Translations under genes and position numbers: made by a program
From: an uncultured Massilia sp.
Lineage (GTDB): Bacteria; Pseudomonadota; Gammaproteobacteria; Burkholderiales; Burkholderiaceae_D
DNA length: 64,000 nucleotides
NCBI RefSeq assembly: GCF_913773735.1
Contig: NZ_CAJYEB010000023.1
Coordinates: forward strand, 248,001 to 312,000
Reading direction: 5' to 3'
The notes under the pieces: generated by a model
The model's database searches: none
What the model saw: the letters and a program-made list of their open reading frames with translations, nothing else
Told to the model about the DNA's origin: nothing
Shown: in pieces, positions 6,489 to 16,977 of the stretch
Position numbering within the stretch: the stretch's first letter is position 1
Layout of the letters: each line of letters opens with the position of its first letter

Positions 6489-6601
6489 CTTTTAGTTCGT
6501 GATGTATAGCATACGTTTCGTGAATGTTTACTTAGGTGAAACTATCATTCATCCTTGGTCTGCTTATGCGCCGCGCGAATATCTGTCCGGCGACGAGACG
6601 C

Positions 6602-6617
6602 TGGCCCGGAACTTGCA
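6602..6617 (+). promoter_or_regulatory. Sigma-54 (-24/-12) promoter-like element upstream of nasT
   Basis: TGGCCCG-GAAC-TTGCA matches the RpoN consensus TGGCACG-N4-TTGCA at all but one position, with GG and GC correctly spaced. The predicted start (about 6627-6628) falls 2-3 bases before the nasT ATG at 6630, so the transcript would be nearly leaderless, or the element is fortuitous. Confidence 0.5.
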
Positions 6618-6629
6618 TATCCGGTTGGC

Positions 6630-7271
6630 ATGAAATCGCCTCCGAAGGTTCCGCGCACCCTGCGCATCGTCGTCATCAATGCCACGCCGGTGTCCTGCGC
6701 CGGCGCGGACGCGGCGGTCATGCAGGCGCAACGCAACGCGCAGCTTCGCATCGGCCTGCTCGAATCCGGCTACGACATCGTCGCCTCGCTGCCGGCCGAC
6801 ATCTTCCTTCCCGAGCGCATCGCCCAGATCCAGCCCGACATGATCATCATCGACAGCGAGTCGGACGCGCGCGACGTGCTCGAGCACATCGTGATCGCCA
6901 CCCGCGACGAGCCGCGCCCGATCGTGCTGTTCACCGACGACGAGACCACCTCGAGCATGGACGCGGCAATGGAAGCCGGCGTCTCGGCGTACATCGTGGA
7001 CGGCCTGCAGGCCGAGCGCGTCAAGCCGGTGCTGGACGTGGCGCTGGCGCGCTTCCGGCACGACCGGCGCCTGCTGGAAGCACTGTCGGACACGCGCCGC
7101 CAGCTGGCCGACCGCAAGCTGGTCGAGCGCGCCAAGGGCATCCTGATGGCCAAGGGGGGCCTGAGCGAGGACCAGGCCTACCAGAAGCTGCGCGGGATGG
7201 CGATGAACAGGAAGCTCCGGCTGGCGGAGGTGGCGCAGCGGATCCTGGACGTCGAGGACCTGCTGGGCTGA
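6630..7271 (+). CDS. nasT: NasT-like ANTAR-domain antitermination regulator
   Basis: A 213-residue protein of the AmiR/NasT group. The N-terminal ~125 residues form a receiver-like domain (TLRIVVINATP, IIIDSESDARDVLEH, PIVLFTDDETTSSMDAAMEAGVSAYIVDGLQ). The C-terminal ~60 residues are an ANTAR RNA-binding domain (LVERAKGILMAKGGLSEDQAYQKLRGMAMNRKLRLAEVAQRIL). NasT proteins bind tandem hexaloop hairpins in nitrate-operon leaders and prevent termination; such a leader lies at 8669-8830. The ATG at 6630 was chosen because the receiver begins about 10 residues later; the Shine-Dalgarno is weak. The next gene, nasS, encodes the partner that holds NasT inactive without nitrate. Confidence 0.9.
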   Translation: MKSPPKVPRTLRIVVINATPVSCAGADAAVMQAQRNAQLRIGLLESGYDIVASLPADIFLPERIAQIQPDMIIIDSESDARDVLEHIVIATRDEPRPIVLFTDDETTSSMDAAMEAGVSAYIVDGLQAERVKPVLDVALARFRHDRRLLEALSDTRRQLADRKLVERAKGILMAKGGLSEDQAYQKLRGMAMNRKLRLAEVAQRILDVEDLLG

Positions 7272-7345
7272 CACCCGGCCCACCATGCATGGCGTCCCTG
7301 CGCGGGCAGGGGCGACGTTGATTGACTACCAAGCTAAGGAACACT

Positions 7346-8521
7346 ATGTCAGGCGCATTCGTAACCGGTTCCGACCGCCCCGAGAAGGGCACGATCCGCG
7401 TCGGGTTCATGCCGCTGACCGACTGCGCATCGCTGGTGATGGCATCGGTGCTGGGCCTGGACGAGAAGCACGGCATCAAGCTGGCGCTGCACCGCCAGCA
7501 TTCGTGGTCGGGCATGCGCGACCGCCTGCTGTCCGGGGAGCTCGACGCGGCGCATGCGCTGTACGGCATGCTGTACGGCGTCGAGAACGGCATCGGCGGC
7601 GCGGCCGCGCGCATGGCCGTGCTGATGAACCTGTCGCGCAACGGCCAGGCGATCACGCTGTCGCGCGCGCTCGCCGCCCAGGGCGCGACCGACCTCGCCA
7701 CGCTGGCCGCGCTGCTGCGCCGGGGCACGCGCCGCTTCACCTTCGCCCACACGTTCCCGACCGGGAACCACGCGATGTTCCTGTATTACTGGCTGGCGGC
7801 CGGCGGCATCGATCCGCTGCGCGACGTGCGCGTGGCCACCGTGCCGCCCAGCCAGATGGCCGTCAACCTGGCGGCCGGCCACATGGACGGCTTCTGCGCC
7901 GGCGAACCGTGGAGCGCGCGCGCCGTGCTGGACGGCAGCGGCTTCACCGCCGCGACCAGCCAGGACATCTGGCCCGACCATCCCGGCAAGGCGCTCGGCG
8001 CCACCGCCGCCTTCGTCGACGCCAATCCGCACGCCTGCCGCTCGCTGGTCGCCGCCGTGCTGGAAGCGGGACGCTGGATCGACGACGCGCCGTCCCACCG
8101 CGACGCGGCGGCCGAGGTACTGGCCAGCCCCGCCTACGTGGACGCCGACCGCCAGGCGATCGCCGCGCGCCTGCACGGCCACTACGACAACGGCCTCGGC
8201 AAGCGCTGGACCGACCCCGACCCGCTGCAGTTCCACGCCGGCGGCGAGGCCAACTTCCCGTGGCTGTCGGACGGCATGTGGTTCATGACCCAGCACCGGC
8301 GCTGGGGGCTCTTGCGCGAGGACGTCGACTACGCGGCGGTGGCCGCGCGCGTCAACCGCGTCGGCCTGTACCGCGAGGCGGCGCTGGTGGCCGGCGTGCC
8401 GGCGCCGTCCAGCCTGATGCGCACCTCGATGCTCATGGACGGCAAGGTCTGGACCGGCAAGGACCCCGCCGCCTATCTCTCGTCCTTCCCGATCGCCCGT
8501 CCGGCGCTGGCCGGCGCCTGA
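7346..8521 (+). CDS. nasS: NasS-like nitrate sensor (NrtA/CmpA-type binding protein)
   Basis: This 391-residue protein has the fold of nitrate/bicarbonate ABC-transporter binding proteins (GFMPLTDCASLVMA near the start; LPSG-type ligand region TNVVPPSQMAVNLAAGHMDGFCAGEPW further on) but no signal peptide, as expected for the cytoplasmic sensor NasS. ATG at 7346 is preceded by AAGGA with 5 bases spacing; an upstream TTG (7322) has none. No permease or ATPase genes are nearby, and it directly follows nasT, so a regulatory role is favoured: without nitrate or nitrite NasS would sequester NasT. A terminator follows before the structural operon. Confidence 0.85.
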   Translation: MSGAFVTGSDRPEKGTIRVGFMPLTDCASLVMASVLGLDEKHGIKLALHRQHSWSGMRDRLLSGELDAAHALYGMLYGVENGIGGAAARMAVLMNLSRNGQAITLSRALAAQGATDLATLAALLRRGTRRFTFAHTFPTGNHAMFLYYWLAAGGIDPLRDVRVATVPPSQMAVNLAAGHMDGFCAGEPWSARAVLDGSGFTAATSQDIWPDHPGKALGATAAFVDANPHACRSLVAAVLEAGRWIDDAPSHRDAAAEVLASPAYVDADRQAIAARLHGHYDNGLGKRWTDPDPLQFHAGGEANFPWLSDGMWFMTQHRRWGLLREDVDYAAVAARVNRVGLYREAALVAGVPAPSSLMRTSMLMDGKVWTGKDPAAYLSSFPIARPALAGA

Positions 8522-8550
8522 CCGGGGCCTGACCGGCGCGGGCATGGTGC

Positions 8551-8577
8551 GGGGCGCCGCCCGCGCGCCCCGTTTTT
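8551..8577 (+). terminator. Rho-independent terminator after nasS
   Basis: A 7-bp G/C stem (GGGGCGC at 8551-8557 with GCGCCCC at 8565-8571, 7-base loop) is followed by GTTTTT. It separates the nasTS regulators from the sigma-54-driven structural operon. Confidence 0.7.
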
Positions 8578-8643
8578 GCGCATGGTGCACTGCAATGAAG
8601 CGCGCCGCCCCGGCGGGCGCCCGGCGCGTGGGGCGGCGCCACG

Positions 8644-8659
8644 TGGCACGGCTCTTGCA
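8644..8659 (+). promoter_or_regulatory. Sigma-54 promoter of the nitrate assimilation operon
   Basis: TGGCACG-GCTC-TTGCA is an exact match to the core RpoN -24/-12 consensus. The predicted start is about 8669-8670, immediately before the first hairpin of the leader. Two ATGGTGC half-sites upstream (8544-8550 and 8582-8588) resemble NtrC half-sites. Together with ntrBC in this window this indicates NtrC activation under nitrogen limitation. Confidence 0.88.
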
Positions 8660-8668
8660 CATACCCTG

Positions 8669-8830
8669 GTCGAGGATCAACGGCGATCCCTTCATGAATA
8701 CAGGTGCCAGCCCAACGGCGGGTTGGCAGACAAGGACAACGGCGTCCGCTGCACCCGCCCGCGCATGCACCCGCATGCCGCCGCGCGGCCAGGCAGCGGG
8801 CGCCTTTTTCATTTTTAAAGGGTAAACAAG
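8669..8830 (+). ncRNA. NasT/ANTAR-type antitermination leader RNA with three hexaloop hairpins
   Basis: The untranslated leader holds three hairpins, each with the identical loop AACGGC (A at loop position 1, G at position 4, as in ANTAR targets). Hairpin 1: stem 8674-8678/8685-8689, 5 bp. Hairpin 2: stem 8705-8713/8720-8728, 9 bp including one G-U. Hairpin 3: stem 8734-8737/8744-8747, 4 bp. The 5' arm of the terminator (8741-8752) overlaps the loop and 3' arm of hairpin 3, so hairpin 3 and the terminator cannot form together. NasT binding to hairpins 2 and 3 would therefore allow read-through into the transporter gene at 8831. Confidence 0.85.
8741..8816 (+). terminator. Leader (attenuator) terminator of the nas operon
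   Basis: GGCGTCCGCTGC (8741-8752) pairs along 12 bases, with one G-U, with GCAGCGGGCGCC (8793-8804). The 40-base loop contains a smaller palindromic segment. The stem is followed by TTTTTCATTTTT (8805-8816). It lies between the sigma-54 promoter and the first structural gene, as expected for nitrate-regulated attenuation. Confidence 0.85.
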
Positions 8831-10126
8831 ATGGCCGGCAAAGCGAACAGCATCAAGCTCCTCTCCTTCGACACGCCGCAGATGCGTGCCTTCCACCTGA
8901 CCTGGGTGGCCTTCTTCGTCTGCTTCTTCGCCTGGTTCGCCTGCGCGCCGCTGATGCCAGTCATCAAGGGCGAATTCCACCTGTCGGTGGCGCAGATCGC
9001 CGACATCAACATCGCCGCGGTCGCCATCACGATCCTGGTGCGCCTGCTGGTCGGCCCGCTGTGCGACCGCTTCGGCCCGCGCAAGACCTATACCGGCCTG
9101 CTGGCGCTGGGCGCGCTCCCCGTGCTGGGCGTGGCGCTGGCGCAGAGCTACGAGAGCTTCCTGCTGTTCCGCCTGGGCATCGGCGCCGTCGGCGCCAGCT
9201 TCGTGATCACCCAGTACCATACCTCGGTGATGTTCGGCCCGAAGGTGGTCGGCACCGCCAACGCGGCGGCGGCCGGCTGGGGCAACAGTGGCGGCGGCGC
9301 GGCCCAGGCCCTGATGCCCCTGCTGATGGGCGCCGTCGTCATGGCCGGCGTGAGCGAGACGATGGGCTGGCGCGTGGCGCTGCTGGTGCCGGGCGTGCTG
9401 ATGCTCATCATGGCCGTGGTCTACTGGAAGTTCACCCAGGACTGCCCGGAAGGTAACTTCGCCGATCTGCGCGGCGCCGGCATCCCGTTCGAGGCGGGCG
9501 GCAAGGGCGGCTGGGCGAGCTTTCGCGAAGCCTGCCGCAACTACCGCGCCTGGCTGCTGTTCGTCACCTACGGCGCCTGCTTCGGCATCGAACTGTTCGT
9601 CCACAACATCGCCGCCACCTACTACGTCGACCACTTCAAGCTGTCGCTGGGCGCGGCCGGCATGGCGGCCGGCAGCTTCGGCCTGCTGGCGCTGTTCGCC
9701 CGCGCGCTGGGCGGCTGGCTGTCCGACCGCGCCGCCAACCGCGGCGACCTGAATTCGCGCGTCACCCTGCTGTTCGTGCTGATGGTGGGCGAGGGCCTGG
9801 GCCTGCTGTGGTTCTCCAGCACCACCAGCGCGGCGCTGGCGATCACCGCCATGCTGGCCTTCGGCCTGTGCACCCACATGGCCTGCGGCGCGACCTATGC
9901 GCTGGTGCCGTTCGTGAGCCGCAAGGCGCTGGGCGGCGTGGCCGGCATCGTCGGCGCGGGCGGCAACGTCGGCGCCGTGCTGGCCGGCTTCCTGATGAAG
10001 GGCAGCGGCGACGTGCGCCAGACCTTCATGATCCTGGGCGGCCTGGTGCTGGCGTCCGCCGTGTGCGCGATCGGCGTGCGCTTCAAGTCGGCCGTCGTCG
10101 AGACCCCGGCGCCGGCCGCCGCCTGA
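8831..10126 (+). CDS. NarK/NasA-type nitrate/nitrite MFS transporter
   Basis: A 431-residue inner-membrane major facilitator protein with about 12 helices. The nitrate signature G-W-G-N-S-G-G-G (AAAGWGNSGGGAAQALMPLL, around residue 145) and a second G-A-G-G-N-V-G-A motif near residue 378 identify the nitrate/nitrite porter family. AAAGGG lies 8 bases before the ATG. As first gene after the antitermination leader it imports nitrate for the reductases encoded downstream. It is of the short single-domain type, not a NarK1-NarK2 fusion. Confidence 0.93.
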   Translation: MAGKANSIKLLSFDTPQMRAFHLTWVAFFVCFFAWFACAPLMPVIKGEFHLSVAQIADINIAAVAITILVRLLVGPLCDRFGPRKTYTGLLALGALPVLGVALAQSYESFLLFRLGIGAVGASFVITQYHTSVMFGPKVVGTANAAAAGWGNSGGGAAQALMPLLMGAVVMAGVSETMGWRVALLVPGVLMLIMAVVYWKFTQDCPEGNFADLRGAGIPFEAGGKGGWASFREACRNYRAWLLFVTYGACFGIELFVHNIAATYYVDHFKLSLGAAGMAAGSFGLLALFARALGGWLSDRAANRGDLNSRVTLLFVLMVGEGLGLLWFSSTTSAALAITAMLAFGLCTHMACGATYALVPFVSRKALGGVAGIVGAGGNVGAVLAGFLMKGSGDVRQTFMILGGLVLASAVCAIGVRFKSAVVETPAPAAA

Positions 10127-13049: not shown

Positions 13050-14267
13050 ATGGAACGCCAGTCCCTCGTCGTCATCGGCAACGGCATGGCCGGCATGCGC
13101 ACGGTCGAGGAATTGCTCAGGCTCGCGCCCGACAGGTACCGCATCGCCGTGTTCGGGCTGGAACCCCACGGCAACTACAACCGCATCCTGCTGTCGCCCG
13201 TGCTGGCCGGCGACAAGAGCGTCGACGACATCATGCTCAACACCCGCGCCTGGTACGCGGACAACGGCGTCCAGCTGCACGCGGGCGACCCGGTGGTGCG
13301 CATCGACCGCAGGCGCCGCACGGTGCACGCGGCGTCCGGCCTGGCCGTGCGCTACGACCGCCTGCTGATCGCCACCGGCTCGAAGCCCTTCATCGTGCCG
13401 GTGCCGGGCCACGACCTGCCGGGCGTGGTCGGCTTTCGCGACCTGCACGACGTCGACACGATGCTGGCGGCGGCGCGCGCCGGCGGCAAGGCCGTCGTCA
13501 TCGGCGGCGGCCTGCTCGGCCTGGAGGCGGCCAACGGCCTGCTGCGCCGGGGCATGGACGTGACCGTGGTGCACGTCACCGCCAGCCTGATGAACCAGCA
13601 GCTCGACCCGCCCGCGGCCGACCTGCTGCGCGCCAGCCTGGAGCGGCGCGGCCTGCGCATCCTGCTGGAACGCCAGACCGCCGCCATCGCCGCCGGCGCC
13701 GCCGGCCGGGTACGCAAGGTGGTGTTCGAAGGCGGCGAGGAGATCGACGCCGACCTGGTCGTGATGGCCGCCGGCGTGCGGCCCAACGTCGAACTGGCCA
13801 GGGCCGCCGGCCTGCATTGCGAGCGCGCCATCATCGTCGACGACACGCTGCAGACCTACGACCCGCGCATCTATGCGGTCGGCGAGTGCGTCCAGCACCG
13901 CCGCGCCACCTTCGGCCTGGTGGCGCCGATCTGGGACCAGGCGCGCGTGTGCGCCGCCCACCTGGCCGGCAGCGGCCACCGCCGCTACGTGCAGCAGGCC
14001 ACCGCCACCAAGCTGAAGGTGACGGGCGTGGACCTGTACTCGGCCGGCGACATCGTCGGCGGCGCCGGCAGCGAAGACCTGGTGCTGCGCGACCGGCGCG
14101 GCGGCGTGTACAAGCGCCTGGTGGTGGCGGGCAACCGCCTGACCGGCGCGGTGCTGTACGGGGACGTGGCCGACGGCCCCTGGTATTTCGACCTGATCCG
14201 CAACGGCACCGACATCTCTTCCATCCGCGACCACCTGTTGTTCGGCCAGGCGCAAGCCGCCGCCTGA
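13050..14267 (+). CDS. NAD(P)H/FAD-dependent reductase, electron-transfer partner of the nitrate reductase
   Basis: A 405-residue pyridine-nucleotide disulphide oxidoreductase-class flavoprotein closely resembling the N-terminal domain of NirB. FAD motif VVIGNGMAGMRTVEELL at the start, NAD motif VVIGGGLLGLEAANGLL near residue 150, and AVGECVQHR near 275. It lacks redox-active Cys pairs and iron-sulphur domains. It lies one base after nirD and 13 bases before the nitrate reductase gene. By analogy with assimilatory systems that use a separate diaphorase, it most likely passes electrons from NAD(P)H to the BFD [2Fe-2S] domain of the reductase. Naming of this subunit differs between species, so no symbol is given. 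Confidence 0.88.
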   Translation: MERQSLVVIGNGMAGMRTVEELLRLAPDRYRIAVFGLEPHGNYNRILLSPVLAGDKSVDDIMLNTRAWYADNGVQLHAGDPVVRIDRRRRTVHAASGLAVRYDRLLIATGSKPFIVPVPGHDLPGVVGFRDLHDVDTMLAAARAGGKAVVIGGGLLGLEAANGLLRRGMDVTVVHVTASLMNQQLDPPAADLLRASLERRGLRILLERQTAAIAAGAAGRVRKVVFEGGEEIDADLVVMAAGVRPNVELARAAGLHCERAIIVDDTLQTYDPRIYAVGECVQHRRATFGLVAPIWDQARVCAAHLAGSGHRRYVQQATATKLKVTGVDLYSAGDIVGGAGSEDLVLRDRRGGVYKRLVVAGNRLTGAVLYGDVADGPWYFDLIRNGTDISSIRDHLLFGQAQAAA

Positions 14268-14280
14268 CGAGGAATCCCCC

Positions 14281-16977
14281 ATGACGCCTTCCATCCCGAT
14301 CCTGTCCTCCACCGTGCGCACCACCTGCCCGTACTGCGGCGTCGGCTGCGGCGTCGACGCCCGGGTCGGGGCGGACGGCGCGCTGTCGATCGCCGGCGAC
14401 GCCGCGCATCCCGCCAGCGGCGGGCGCCTGTGCGTGAAGGGGGCGGCGCTGGGCGAGACGGTGGGACTGGAAGGACGCCTGCTGGCGCCGATGCTGCGCA
14501 CCGGGACGGGCCTGCGCGCGGCATCCTGGGACGAGGCGCTGGACCGGGTGGCCGGCGAGTTCGCGCGCATCGTCGCGCAGCACGGTCCGGACGCGGTGGC
14601 GCTGTACGTGTCGGGCCAGCTGCTCACCGAGGACTACTACGTCGCCAACAAGTTCATGAAGGGCTACGTCGGCAGCGCGAACATCGACACCAATTCGCGC
14701 CTGTGCATGTCCTCGGCCGTGGCCGGGCACAAGCGCGCCTTCGGCGAGGACATCGTGCCCGGCTGCTACGAGGATTTCGAGCTGGCCGACCTGCTCGTGC
14801 TGGTCGGCTCGAACGCCGCCTGGTGCCATCCCACGCTGTACCAGCGCATCGCGCGCGCGAAACAGGAGCGCCCGCAGATGCAGGTGGTGGTGATCGACCC
14901 GCGCCGCACCGCCACCTGCGAGCTGGCCGACCTGCACCTGCCCGTCAAGCCCGGCGCCGACGTGTGGCTGTTCGACGGCCTGCTGGCCTACCTCGCGGCG
15001 CAGCGCGCCGTCGACCACGACTTCGTGGACGCCCACACCGAGGGCCTGGCCGACGCGCTGGAGGCGGCCGGCAGGGCCGGCACCCTCCTCGACGTGGCCA
15101 GGGCGTGCGGGCTCGATCCGCAGCAGCTGCTGCGCTTCTACGAGCTGTTCGCGCGCACCGGGAAGACCGTCACCGCCTTCACCATGGGCGTGAACCAGTC
15201 CACCAGCGGCGCCGACAAGGTCAATGCGATCATCAACTGCCACCTGGCGACGGGGCGCATCGGCCGTCCCGGCATGGGGCCATTCTCGCTGACCGGGCAG
15301 CCGAACGCCATGGGCGGGCGCGAGGTCGGCGGCCTGGCGAACATGCTGGCGGCGCACATGGACCTCGAGGACCCGGACCAGCGCACGTCCCTGCAGGCGT
15401 TCTGGGATGCGCCGCGCATGGCCGACAAGCCGGGCCTGAAGGCGGTCGACCTGTTCCGCGCGATCGAGGAGGGCAAGGTCAAGGCCGTCTGGATCATGGC
15501 GACCAATCCGCTGGTCAGCCTGCCGGACGCCGGCCAGGCGCGCCGCGCGCTGGAGCGGTGCGAGCTGGTGGTGGCGTCCGACATCGTCGCCGGCACCGAC
15601 ACCAACGCCTTGGCCCACGTGCTGCTGCCGGCGCTGGGCTGGGGCGAGAAGGACGGCACGGTCACCAATTCCGAGCGCTGCATCTCGCGCCAGCGCGCCT
15701 TCCTGGCCGCGCCGGGCCAGGCGCGCGCCGACTGGGACATCGTGTGCGACGTCGCGCGCCGCATGGGCTTCGCCGGATTCGACTTCGCCGGCGCGCACGA
15801 GATATTCGACGAGCACGCGCGCCTGTCGGCCTGGAACAACGGCACCGACGGCCAGCGCCGGCGCCTGTTCGACATCGGCGGCCTGGCGGGCATGGACCGC
15901 GCCGGCTACGACGCGCTGGCGCCGGTGCAGTGGCCCGTGCGCGCGCCGGGCGAGGCCAGCGCGCGCCTGTTCGGCGCCGGCGGCTTCGCGCACCGCGACG
16001 GGCGCGCGCGCTTCGTGCCGACCGCGCCGCGCCGGCCGGCCAACCTGCCGGACGGCGACTACCCGATGGTGCTGAACACCGGCCGCGTGCGCGACCAGTG
16101 GCACACGATGACCCGCACCGGCCGCGCGCCGACGCTGGCCGGACACGCGCCGGAGCCGTTCGTCGACATGCACCCGCAGGACGCGCTGCTGTGCGGCGTG
16201 AAGGCGGGCGAGCTGGCGCGCGTGACGAGCGCCTGGGGCGCGGTCGTCGCGCGCGTGCAGCACGGCGGCGGCATCGCGCGCGGCAGCGCCTTCATGCCGA
16301 TCCACTGGAGCGGCCGGACGGCGTCCGACGCGCTGGTCGGCGCCGTCGTCAATCCGGCCGTCGATCCGGTCTCGGGCGAGCCCGAGTTCAAGCACACGCC
16401 GGTGCGCATCGAACCGTTCGGCGTGGCCTGGTACGGCTTCATCCTCAGCCGCGGCGAGCTGCCGCTGCGCGAGGCGGCCCACTGGACCCGCATCCAGGGG
16501 CGCGGCTTCGTGCGCTATGAGCTGGCCGGCCGCGTGCCGTTCGCGCAGGCGCCCGCGTGGACCCGCGCGCTGCTGGGCCTGGGCGACGGGGACGACGACG
16601 CCGACTGGATCGAGGTCGAGGACAGGAGCGGCGGCATGGTGCGCGCCGCGCACCTGGTCGACGGCCGCATCGTGTCCTGCCTGTTCGTCTCGCGGCGCCA
16701 GGACCTGCCGGCGCGCGCCTGGCTGGCCGGCATGTTCGACAAGGAGCGGTTCACCCCGGCCGACCGCCTCGCCCTGCTGTCCGGCCGCGCGAAGGAGCCG
16801 GGCGCCGACCCGGGCCCGACCGTCTGCTCCTGCTTCGGCGTCGGCCGCAAGACCATCGAGGGCGCGATCCGGCGCCACGGGCTGGCCGACGCGGCGGCCG
16901 TCACGGCGTGCACGAAGGCGGGCGGCAACTGCGGGTCGTGCGTGCCGGAGATCCGCGCCCTGCTGGCGCAAGCGTGA
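14281..16977 (+). CDS. nasA: Assimilatory nitrate reductase catalytic subunit with C-terminal BFD domain
   Basis: An 898-residue molybdopterin enzyme reducing nitrate to nitrite in the cytoplasm. C16, C19, C23 and C51 (CPYCGVGC, LCVKG) bind the N-terminal [4Fe-4S] cluster. The Mo-bis-MGD domains follow, with IDTNSRLCMSSAVAGHKRAFG (Cys ligand region) and TGRVRDQWHTMTRTG toward the end. The last 50 residues are a BFD [2Fe-2S] domain (C849, C851, C884, C887) typical of the NADH-linked assimilatory type. No Tat signal is present. It closes the nas operon, ending 22 bases from the convergent fumC. Confidence 0.95.
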   Translation: MTPSIPILSSTVRTTCPYCGVGCGVDARVGADGALSIAGDAAHPASGGRLCVKGAALGETVGLEGRLLAPMLRTGTGLRAASWDEALDRVAGEFARIVAQHGPDAVALYVSGQLLTEDYYVANKFMKGYVGSANIDTNSRLCMSSAVAGHKRAFGEDIVPGCYEDFELADLLVLVGSNAAWCHPTLYQRIARAKQERPQMQVVVIDPRRTATCELADLHLPVKPGADVWLFDGLLAYLAAQRAVDHDFVDAHTEGLADALEAAGRAGTLLDVARACGLDPQQLLRFYELFARTGKTVTAFTMGVNQSTSGADKVNAIINCHLATGRIGRPGMGPFSLTGQPNAMGGREVGGLANMLAAHMDLEDPDQRTSLQAFWDAPRMADKPGLKAVDLFRAIEEGKVKAVWIMATNPLVSLPDAGQARRALERCELVVASDIVAGTDTNALAHVLLPALGWGEKDGTVTNSERCISRQRAFLAAPGQARADWDIVCDVARRMGFAGFDFAGAHEIFDEHARLSAWNNGTDGQRRRLFDIGGLAGMDRAGYDALAPVQWPVRAPGEASARLFGAGGFAHRDGRARFVPTAPRRPANLPDGDYPMVLNTGRVRDQWHTMTRTGRAPTLAGHAPEPFVDMHPQDALLCGVKAGELARVTSAWGAVVARVQHGGGIARGSAFMPIHWSGRTASDALVGAVVNPAVDPVSGEPEFKHTPVRIEPFGVAWYGFILSRGELPLREAAHWTRIQGRGFVRYELAGRVPFAQAPAWTRALLGLGDGDDDADWIEVEDRSGGMVRAAHLVDGRIVSCLFVSRRQDLPARAWLAGMFDKERFTPADRLALLSGRAKEPGADPGPTVCSCFGVGRKTIEGAIRRHGLADAAAVTACTKAGGNCGSCVPEIRALLAQA

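Follow-up and report, generated by a model that had tools for sequence, protein, structure and literature searches.

The untranslated leader of narK, at positions 8669-8830 of the window (the whole 64-kb stretch of DNA that was analysed), holds three hairpins at 8674-8747, each with a six-base loop that carries A at position 1 and G at position 4 (A1/G4), and the last of these excludes an intrinsic terminator with which it shares bases. Judged from its sequence, the leader is probably a nitrate-controlled transcription attenuator of the ANTAR (NasT) type, built as the series HP1 to HP2 to HP3. Among the matches listed from the order, the first hexaloop has a nearly constant place behind the predicted transcript start, and the middle one varies. 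The features concerned, all on the + strand, are the following:

6555..7271, +, nasT, putative ANTAR antiterminator with a receiver-like N-terminus (Pfam ANTAR, 71.1 bits; cut-off 27.3)
7322..8521, +, nasS, putative nitrate-binding-type sensor protein (Pfam NMT1_2, 301 bits)
8644..8659, +, predicted sigma-54-type promoter TGGCACG-N4-TTGCA (sequence; predicted +1 at 8670)
8674..8689, +, HP1, promoter-proximal ANTAR-type hexaloop hairpin GGATC-AACGGC-GATCC, loop 8679-8684 (sequence, fold, alignment)
8705..8728, +, HP2, middle ANTAR-type hexaloop hairpin TGCCAGCCC-AACGGC-GGGTTGGCA, loop 8714-8719 (sequence, fold, alignment)
8734..8747, +, HP3, antitermination hairpin GGAC-AACGGC-GTCC, loop 8738-8743 (cannot form together with the terminator)
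8741..8809, +, intrinsic terminator, 12-bp stem 8741-8752/8793-8804 followed by TTTTT at 8805-8809
8831..10126, +, narK, predicted nitrate/nitrite MFS transporter, first gene of the controlled operon (MFS_1; TIGR00886)
14281..16977, +, predicted assimilatory nitrate reductase type protein (molybdopterin domains and Fer2_BFD)

Anatomy of the narK leader

The sequence-only reading of this DNA had described hairpins at 8674-8689, 8705-8728 and 8734-8747 with the same AACGGC loop, the last of them exclusive with a 12-bp terminator whose 5' arm is 8741-8752, and both the sequence and the predicted folds confirm this. All three loops are closed by C:G pairs (C8678-G8685, C8713-G8720, and C8737-G8744). 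The 5' arm of the terminator, GGCGTCCGCTGC at 8741-8752, starts at G4 of the HP3 loop and pairs with the 3' arm at 8793-8804; positions 8741-8747 are common to HP3 and the 5' arm. The leader therefore has several of the traits by which the ANTAR dual-hexaloop element is recognised, namely tandem A1/G4 hexaloops (one hairpin beyond the described unit), C:G loop-closing pairs and a last hairpin overlapping the 5' arm of the terminator. In the predicted fold of 8669-8790, which stops short of the terminator 3' arm, all three hairpins form, and the stability of this fold is not above that of shuffled sequences (z -0.96; 32/200). Upon addition of the 3' arm, the terminator replaces HP3, HP1 and HP2 persist, and none of 200 shuffles is equally stable (z -3.94).

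A chance origin of the three hairpins was ruled out using dinucleotide shuffles of 8669-8830, in which three or more A..G.. hexaloop hairpins with a stem of at least 4 appeared in 3/5000 cases, and three or more AA.G.. or AACGGC hairpins with such a stem in 0/5000. Within the 64-kb window, AACGGC on a stem of at least 4 is found five times on the + strand, three of these in the leader, and not at all on the - strand. The exact sequence GGACAACGGCGTCC is also present at 13259-13272, apparently inside a coding region (Asp-Asn-Gly-Val codons, by eye).

The element at 8644..8659 is a good match to the sigma-54 promoter consensus. Based on TGGC at 8644 and the C of the -12 GC at 8658, transcription is predicted to start at 8670, and HP1 begins at about +5 from that base, which agrees with the earlier remark that HP1 starts within about five bases of the predicted transcript start. 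A promoter scan of 8400-8900 returned no sigma-70-like site. A simple terminator scan returned no terminator either, since it admits only smaller loops than that of the leader terminator. After nasS, at about 8551-8577 and just before the sigma-54 promoter, a G+C-rich inverted repeat with GTTTTT behind it resembles by eye the end of a nasTS transcript; it is absent from the output of the same scan.

Putative NasT and NasS and the genes of the operon

The product of the nasT locus matches EutV (PDB: 6wsh; E value 9.1e-20), as well as Rv1626, NasR, and AmiR. Four of the five EutV residues that contact RNA (numbering as given in PMC8934654) are identical in an alignment read by eye, R142, K143, Y164, and M172 corresponding to R187, K188, Y209, and M217 of the nasT product, while K147 aligns to R192, a Lys to Arg replacement. 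No NCBIfam model for nasT exceeded its cut-off with the product of 6555..7271, and the name was assigned from context. The NMT1_2 protein is presumably NasS, a name taken from its position beside nasT. A receiver-like ANTAR protein adjoining an NMT1-type protein is the arrangement expected of a NasS-NasT pair, and binding of nitrate is predicted for it. The location of both genes just upstream of narK supports the identification as a NasT/ANTAR leader that had been suggested from the sequence. Two findings count against the attenuator reading: the genome encodes three ANTAR proteins, two of them besides nasT, any of which may act here, and nasT was inside the fetched upstream flank (up to 4 kb) in 36/80 named loci. 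The two further ANTAR-domain proteins are encoded at G000:C5:9005-9163 and G000:C23:24037-24192.

The narK product scores 297.1 bits with TIGR00886, under the cut-off of 311.7. With the product of 14281..16977, the NasC and NasA models remain below cut-off, and the model for formate dehydrogenase alpha scores higher, also below its cut-off. This gene presumably lies within the narK operon, as we infer its extent.

Conservation in the Oxalobacteraceae

The best 80 narK loci, nearly all of them from genomes that bear the name of an Oxalobacteraceae genus, were combined with the window to give 81 leaders, 79 of them informative (L025 and L051 are cut by a contig end). HP1 and HP3 could be anchored in 78 of the 79, the exception being L070, which has no HP1. 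Three hairpins with unbroken stems of at least 4 are present in 68/79 leaders, and seven more have a single mismatch in the HP2 stem (75/79). The remaining four are L070, L066, in which HP3 is broken, and L075 and L078, both without a hexaloop HP2; by eye, L075 has a middle hairpin with another loop and L078 has no visible middle hairpin. L070 is the reverse of these two, with HP2 and HP3 kept and HP1 absent. The sequence-only reading had proposed a search for this pattern upstream of narK in relatives and had made conservation of the first hairpin there its own test; the pattern recurs, and HP1 is absent from one informative leader only.

An alignment (termed A1) comprises 65 of the 78 leaders in which both HP1 and HP3 are present. 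Leaders judged by eye to be close copies (L006, L012, L030, L034, L035, L044, L058, L072, and L081) were left out, as were L005 and L021, which have long linkers, and L075 and L078; L066 was kept despite its broken HP3 and the fact that no terminator was found in it. Loop positions A1 and G4 are constant in all three hairpins of the 65 aligned leaders, and positions 3, 5, and 6 of the HP2 loop vary. The anchors demanded the constant loop letters in HP1 and HP3, not in HP2, and L070 was the only one of 79 leaders to fail the HP1 anchor. All three loops are identical in only 5/65 leaders; the shared AACGGC, to which the sequence-only reading had given weight, is thus incidental and was discarded as the key feature, what is constant being A1 and G4.

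Among these Oxalobacteraceae leaders, two-sided changes affect three of the five core pairs of HP1 (five cells in total) and five of the nine pairs of HP2; two outer HP1 pairs also vary and are mostly unpaired. The covariation score and the percentage paired were each reached by 0/500 shuffles, and the number of two-sided pairs by 9/500. The five core pairs of HP1 across 65 leaders comprise 312 Watson-Crick pairs, 13 G-U, no A-C and no other combination. The anchor already demanded the two inner pairs; the remaining three, taken separately, give 182 Watson-Crick, 13 G-U and no A-C. The G-U cells are spread over 13 leaders, some of them related, and their occurrence together with zero A-C is the mark of an RNA stem on the + strand.

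A terminator overlapping HP3 was found in 79 of the 80 leaders with HP3 sequence (the exception is L066), and its arm starts at G4 of the HP3 loop in 59/79 relatives and at loop position 1 in 20/79. The HP2-HP3 linker measures 1-6 nt in 59/65 leaders and 1-9 nt across all 65. TGGC precedes the HP1 loop by 33-38 nt in 77 of the 78 leaders that have HP1; L061 was missed by the pattern. In L015, L036, L045, and L049, at about 12 bases before narK, a short A/T hairpin carries a likely ribosome-binding GGGA in its loop.

Distribution and position of the hexaloops

A covariance model of the triple (R1) matched 67/349 genomes of the order, 35/370 of the class and 23/397 of the phylum, the phylum-level matches all falling inside the class. 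Because R1 was trained on triples, these counts lean to triples, and so does the architecture of the class-level matches outside the order, where 28 examined of 37 have two upstream hexaloops in twelve cases, one in twelve, none in three and no HP3 in one; some of these loops are doubtful by eye, and some of these leaders are likely triples just under threshold. This bias is avoided by a pattern for HP3 alone, fixed as GGACAANGGCGTCC, which is present in at least 117/349 genomes of the order. The loci fetched amount to 148 distinct sites among the matches listed, 106 of them with a terminator, although some were first fetched through R1. Among these 106 leaders from the matches listed, upstream A..G.. 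hexaloops with a stem of at least 5 number none in 27, one in 57, and two in 22, compared with 97.4, 2.6, and 0 percent of shuffles, respectively; with a stem of at least 4, the figures are 22, 59, and 25. Leaders with two upstream hexaloops (stem of at least 4) span 10 families among the matches listed, and all six leaders from the window's family in that set have two. A triple restricted to the Oxalobacteraceae was accordingly rejected, as three-hexaloop leaders occur in other families.

A diverse alignment (A2) consists of 36 rows hand-picked as likely triples, one of them a weak second match in L118, and its percentage paired is inflated by that choice of sources. Two-sided changes are found at four of five HP1 pairs and seven of eight HP2 pairs; the covariation was reached in 0/500 shuffles and the number of two-sided pairs in 1/500.

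Of the 106 leaders, 28 in which no sigma-54 site was recognised and two of insufficient length were dropped before the position of the first hexaloop was counted. Eight of the resulting 76, all from the matches listed, are without an upstream hexaloop, which leaves 68. In 62 of these 68 leaders, and in 17/20 families, the first hexaloop has its loop beginning at +7 to +18 relative to the sigma-54 start (among the matches listed, with A..G.. as the search condition); uniform placement gives an expectation of 18.1 and a maximum of 34 in 10,000 placements, a comparison that ignores kinship. Among the same matches, the interval accommodates 31/31 leaders whose sole hexaloop is 37-78 nt from HP3, 12/16 with a nearer sole hexaloop and 19/21 with two. 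In L070, which has no HP1, the HP2 loop starts at +14. The first hexaloop, at +7 to +18, thus follows the 5' end of the RNA, and the last one, through their overlap, follows the terminator.

Elsewhere in the order (among the matches listed), leaders occur whose single distal hexaloop is 37-78 nt away from HP3, and where the first and last hexaloops are far apart, the gap has a second hexaloop or often another fold. Among the matches listed, 23 leaders, all outside the window's family, have a single hexaloop at least 44 nt from HP3, and 14 of these gap segments outfold their shuffles (z below -1.5). By eye, several of the folds show other loop sizes, and at least two gaps (L097 and L210) contain a weak hexaloop below threshold. 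Terminators have a median of -35.2 kcal/mol where two upstream hexaloops are present (21 leaders) and of -30.0 where there is one (47 leaders; among the matches listed; Mann-Whitney p 0.0005, ignoring G+C content and kinship). Two loci have two such leaders back to back on opposite strands, L101 (G142) about 350 and L188 (G278) about 444 bases apart. In L140, the promoter-proximal hairpin seems by eye to carry AAAAGC, without G4, on a long stem, and this leader is a natural test of G4.

Proposed mechanism and alternative explanations

In the proposed mechanism, NasS would hold NasT when nitrate is lacking, and RNA polymerase would stop at the terminator. When nitrate is present, the freed NasT would bind the hexaloops and hold HP3, and the polymerase would then pass the terminator and transcribe narK and the genes for nitrate and nitrite reductase. 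HP1, fixed about 10 nt past the start, would capture NasT as soon as the RNA emerges, HP2 would serve as a second capture or stepping site that bridges the roughly 50-60 nt between HP1 and HP3, and HP3 would be the decision site. For EutV, it has been reported that the dimer cannot hold both loops of one RNA, and a model in which it binds first a recruitment and then an antitermination hairpin, at tight spacing, has been proposed; in the EutV structure, G4 of the hexaloop stacks on an ANTAR tyrosine, and a linker longer by 20 nt abolished antitermination (PMC8934654). The anatomy of the narK leader fits this relay with one more step. The order HP1 to HP2 to HP3 is the least certain step of the mechanism, and we would put its chances slightly below even.

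The sequence-only reading had treated the added hairpin as an extra copy at the 5' end. The three hexaloops stand, but that role for HP1 does not: among the matches listed from the order, the promoter-proximal hexaloop is constant whereas the middle one is variable, most leaders with one upstream hexaloop keep it near +10, and L075 and L078 retain HP1 with HP3. Because of this constancy near the start, HP1 looks like a fixed 5' recruitment site and HP2 like a variable addition, and the place of HP1 at the very start of the RNA hints at the mode of NasT loading. Tentatively, NasT leaders might be built outward from the promoter. The first hexaloop would then have to be transcribed before anything else, NasT would load at about +10 with the polymerase still close to the promoter, and successive hexaloops would hand it on until it reached the terminator hairpin; in a long leader, a middle stepping-stone hexaloop would be needed, which would be why three-hexaloop leaders exist. 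We regard this wider reading as possible rather than probable. A single upstream hexaloop is commoner in the order than two (59 versus 25 of 106, with none in 22, among the matches listed), so that a third hairpin is not needed in general, and long single-hexaloop leaders are at odds with the spacing found for EutV, unless they are compacted by folding.

The strongest rival holds that HP1 and HP3 are an ordinary dual-hexaloop unit and that HP2 is a structural spacer which shortens the gap, its hexaloop being dispensable. The absence of an HP2 hexaloop from L075 and L078 is as expected from such a role, and so are the long gap segments that fold better than shuffles, several with other loop sizes, although the weak hexaloops in at least two of the 23 mean that not all 14 are free of ANTAR-type loops. 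A pure spacer needs no loop sequence, however, and A1 and G4 of HP2, letters that no anchor demanded, are kept in 65/65 leaders while positions 3, 5, and 6 drift; this holds the spacer down, and we consider it unlikely, if the most serious of the alternatives. The same drifting middle hairpin might instead form the working unit with HP3, in which case HP1 would be a 5'-end stem-loop that protects the mRNA, or a leftover. The tandem-like linkers of 1-6 nt between HP2 and HP3, the loss of HP1 from L070, and an Rfam narK match that spans HP2-HP3 only are what this would predict, but it leaves unexplained the A1, A2, and G4 of the HP1 loop in 65/65 leaders (letters demanded by an anchor that L070 alone of 79 failed), the recurrence of an A..G.. 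loop at +7 to +18 over 17/20 families (A..G.. being the search condition, among the matches listed), and the two leaders that retain HP1 and lose the HP2 hexaloop. We give it little credence.

A bolder alternative is that one NasT oligomer holds all three hairpins at once, a multivalent clamp of three dimers instead of a relay. The mass of released Paracoccus NasT was about 130 kDa by gel filtration, described as "broadly consistent with a hexamer" (PMC3795266), and three hairpins would correspond to three dimers; this is, however, one gel-filtration value from another class of bacteria, and in the order more leaders have a total of two hexaloops than of three (among the matches listed), which leaves the clamp improbable. 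That HP1 is no RNA hairpin at all, and that GGATC-N6-GATCC, palindromic and just past the promoter, is a DNA palindrome for a DNA-binding regulator, was rejected and has a negligible chance of being correct: a palindrome would tolerate G-T and A-C alike, whereas the HP1 core has G-U without A-C, and the HP1 loop is conserved and is not palindromic. At stake is the way in which a dimeric ANTAR protein works with two hexaloops when it cannot bind both simultaneously (PMC8934654), and natural leaders with none, one or two upstream hexaloops, the first mostly near +10, offer templates for distinguishing relay, clamp and spacer.

Comparison with known systems

The narK RNA of Rfam (RF03032) resembles the leader in its AACGGC hexaloop hairpin, in a downstream A..G.. 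hexaloop and in a name that points to narK. Its match to the window reaches 25.4 bits, where the gathering score is 43.2, and covers only positions 31-70, and no match over the gathering score was obtained in 41 genomes (the window's own and 40 relatives) under stricter filters. The RF03032 model pairs one hairpin only; a second A..G.. hexaloop is seen at its 3' end, unpaired in the model. Its consensus positions 1-15 (GGCaCAgcucUUGC) look like a sigma-54 -24/-12 promoter, and for that reason the first part of the model is probably untranscribed DNA. The loop of the sole annotated hairpin would then lie at about +13, so that RF03032 seems to obey the positional rule described above. Being sub-threshold and without HP1, it was rejected as the full answer, and the most fitting description of it may be a sigma-54 promoter joined to a portion of an ANTAR site. 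Two-hairpin motif searches alone capture only part of the element.

In the Paracoccus NasS-NasT system, nitrate releases NasT from NasS and NasT binds the nasA leader (PMC3795266, PMC5424462), the released protein shifting nasA leader RNA (PMC3795266). Two leader hairpins, HI and HII, have been mutated there; in P. denitrificans, changing HI abolished induction and changing HII did not (PMC5424462). That one of two hairpins was dispensable there counts against the proposed mechanism, though HII may belong to the terminator. The nasA leader is also said to contain "a series of regulatory hairpins", with data not shown (PMC3795266). The narK leader of B. diazoefficiens has a predicted NasT hairpin, yet narK-bjgb-flp rose in a nasT mutant (PMC6759348), and a NasT hairpin thus need not mean activation by NasT.

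The sole extra hexaloop found in the open-access ANTAR literature is that of the EutX RNA (Rli55), which like the narK leader combines a dual hexaloop with an additional single G4 hexaloop; in contrast to the leader, it is a small RNA thought to sequester EutV and is without a fixed 5' hexaloop (PMC8934654). No three-hexaloop leader was found in the open-access ANTAR/NasT leader literature, in which four papers (PMC3369931, PMC8934654, PMC7496416, and PMC3369936) treat a pair of hairpins as the unit. The closest relative is the ANTAR dual-hexaloop antiterminator of eut, nasF, and amiE (Ramesh 2012, PMC3369931; Walshe 2022, PMC8934654), which has the same A1/G4 hexaloops and C:G closing pairs, the terminal C:G pair being a SELEX result (PMC7496416), together with a last hairpin that overlaps an intrinsic terminator and an ANTAR protein. 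Unlike that element, the narK leader has three tandem hexaloops instead of two, and its first is fixed near the 5' end of a sigma-54-type transcript.
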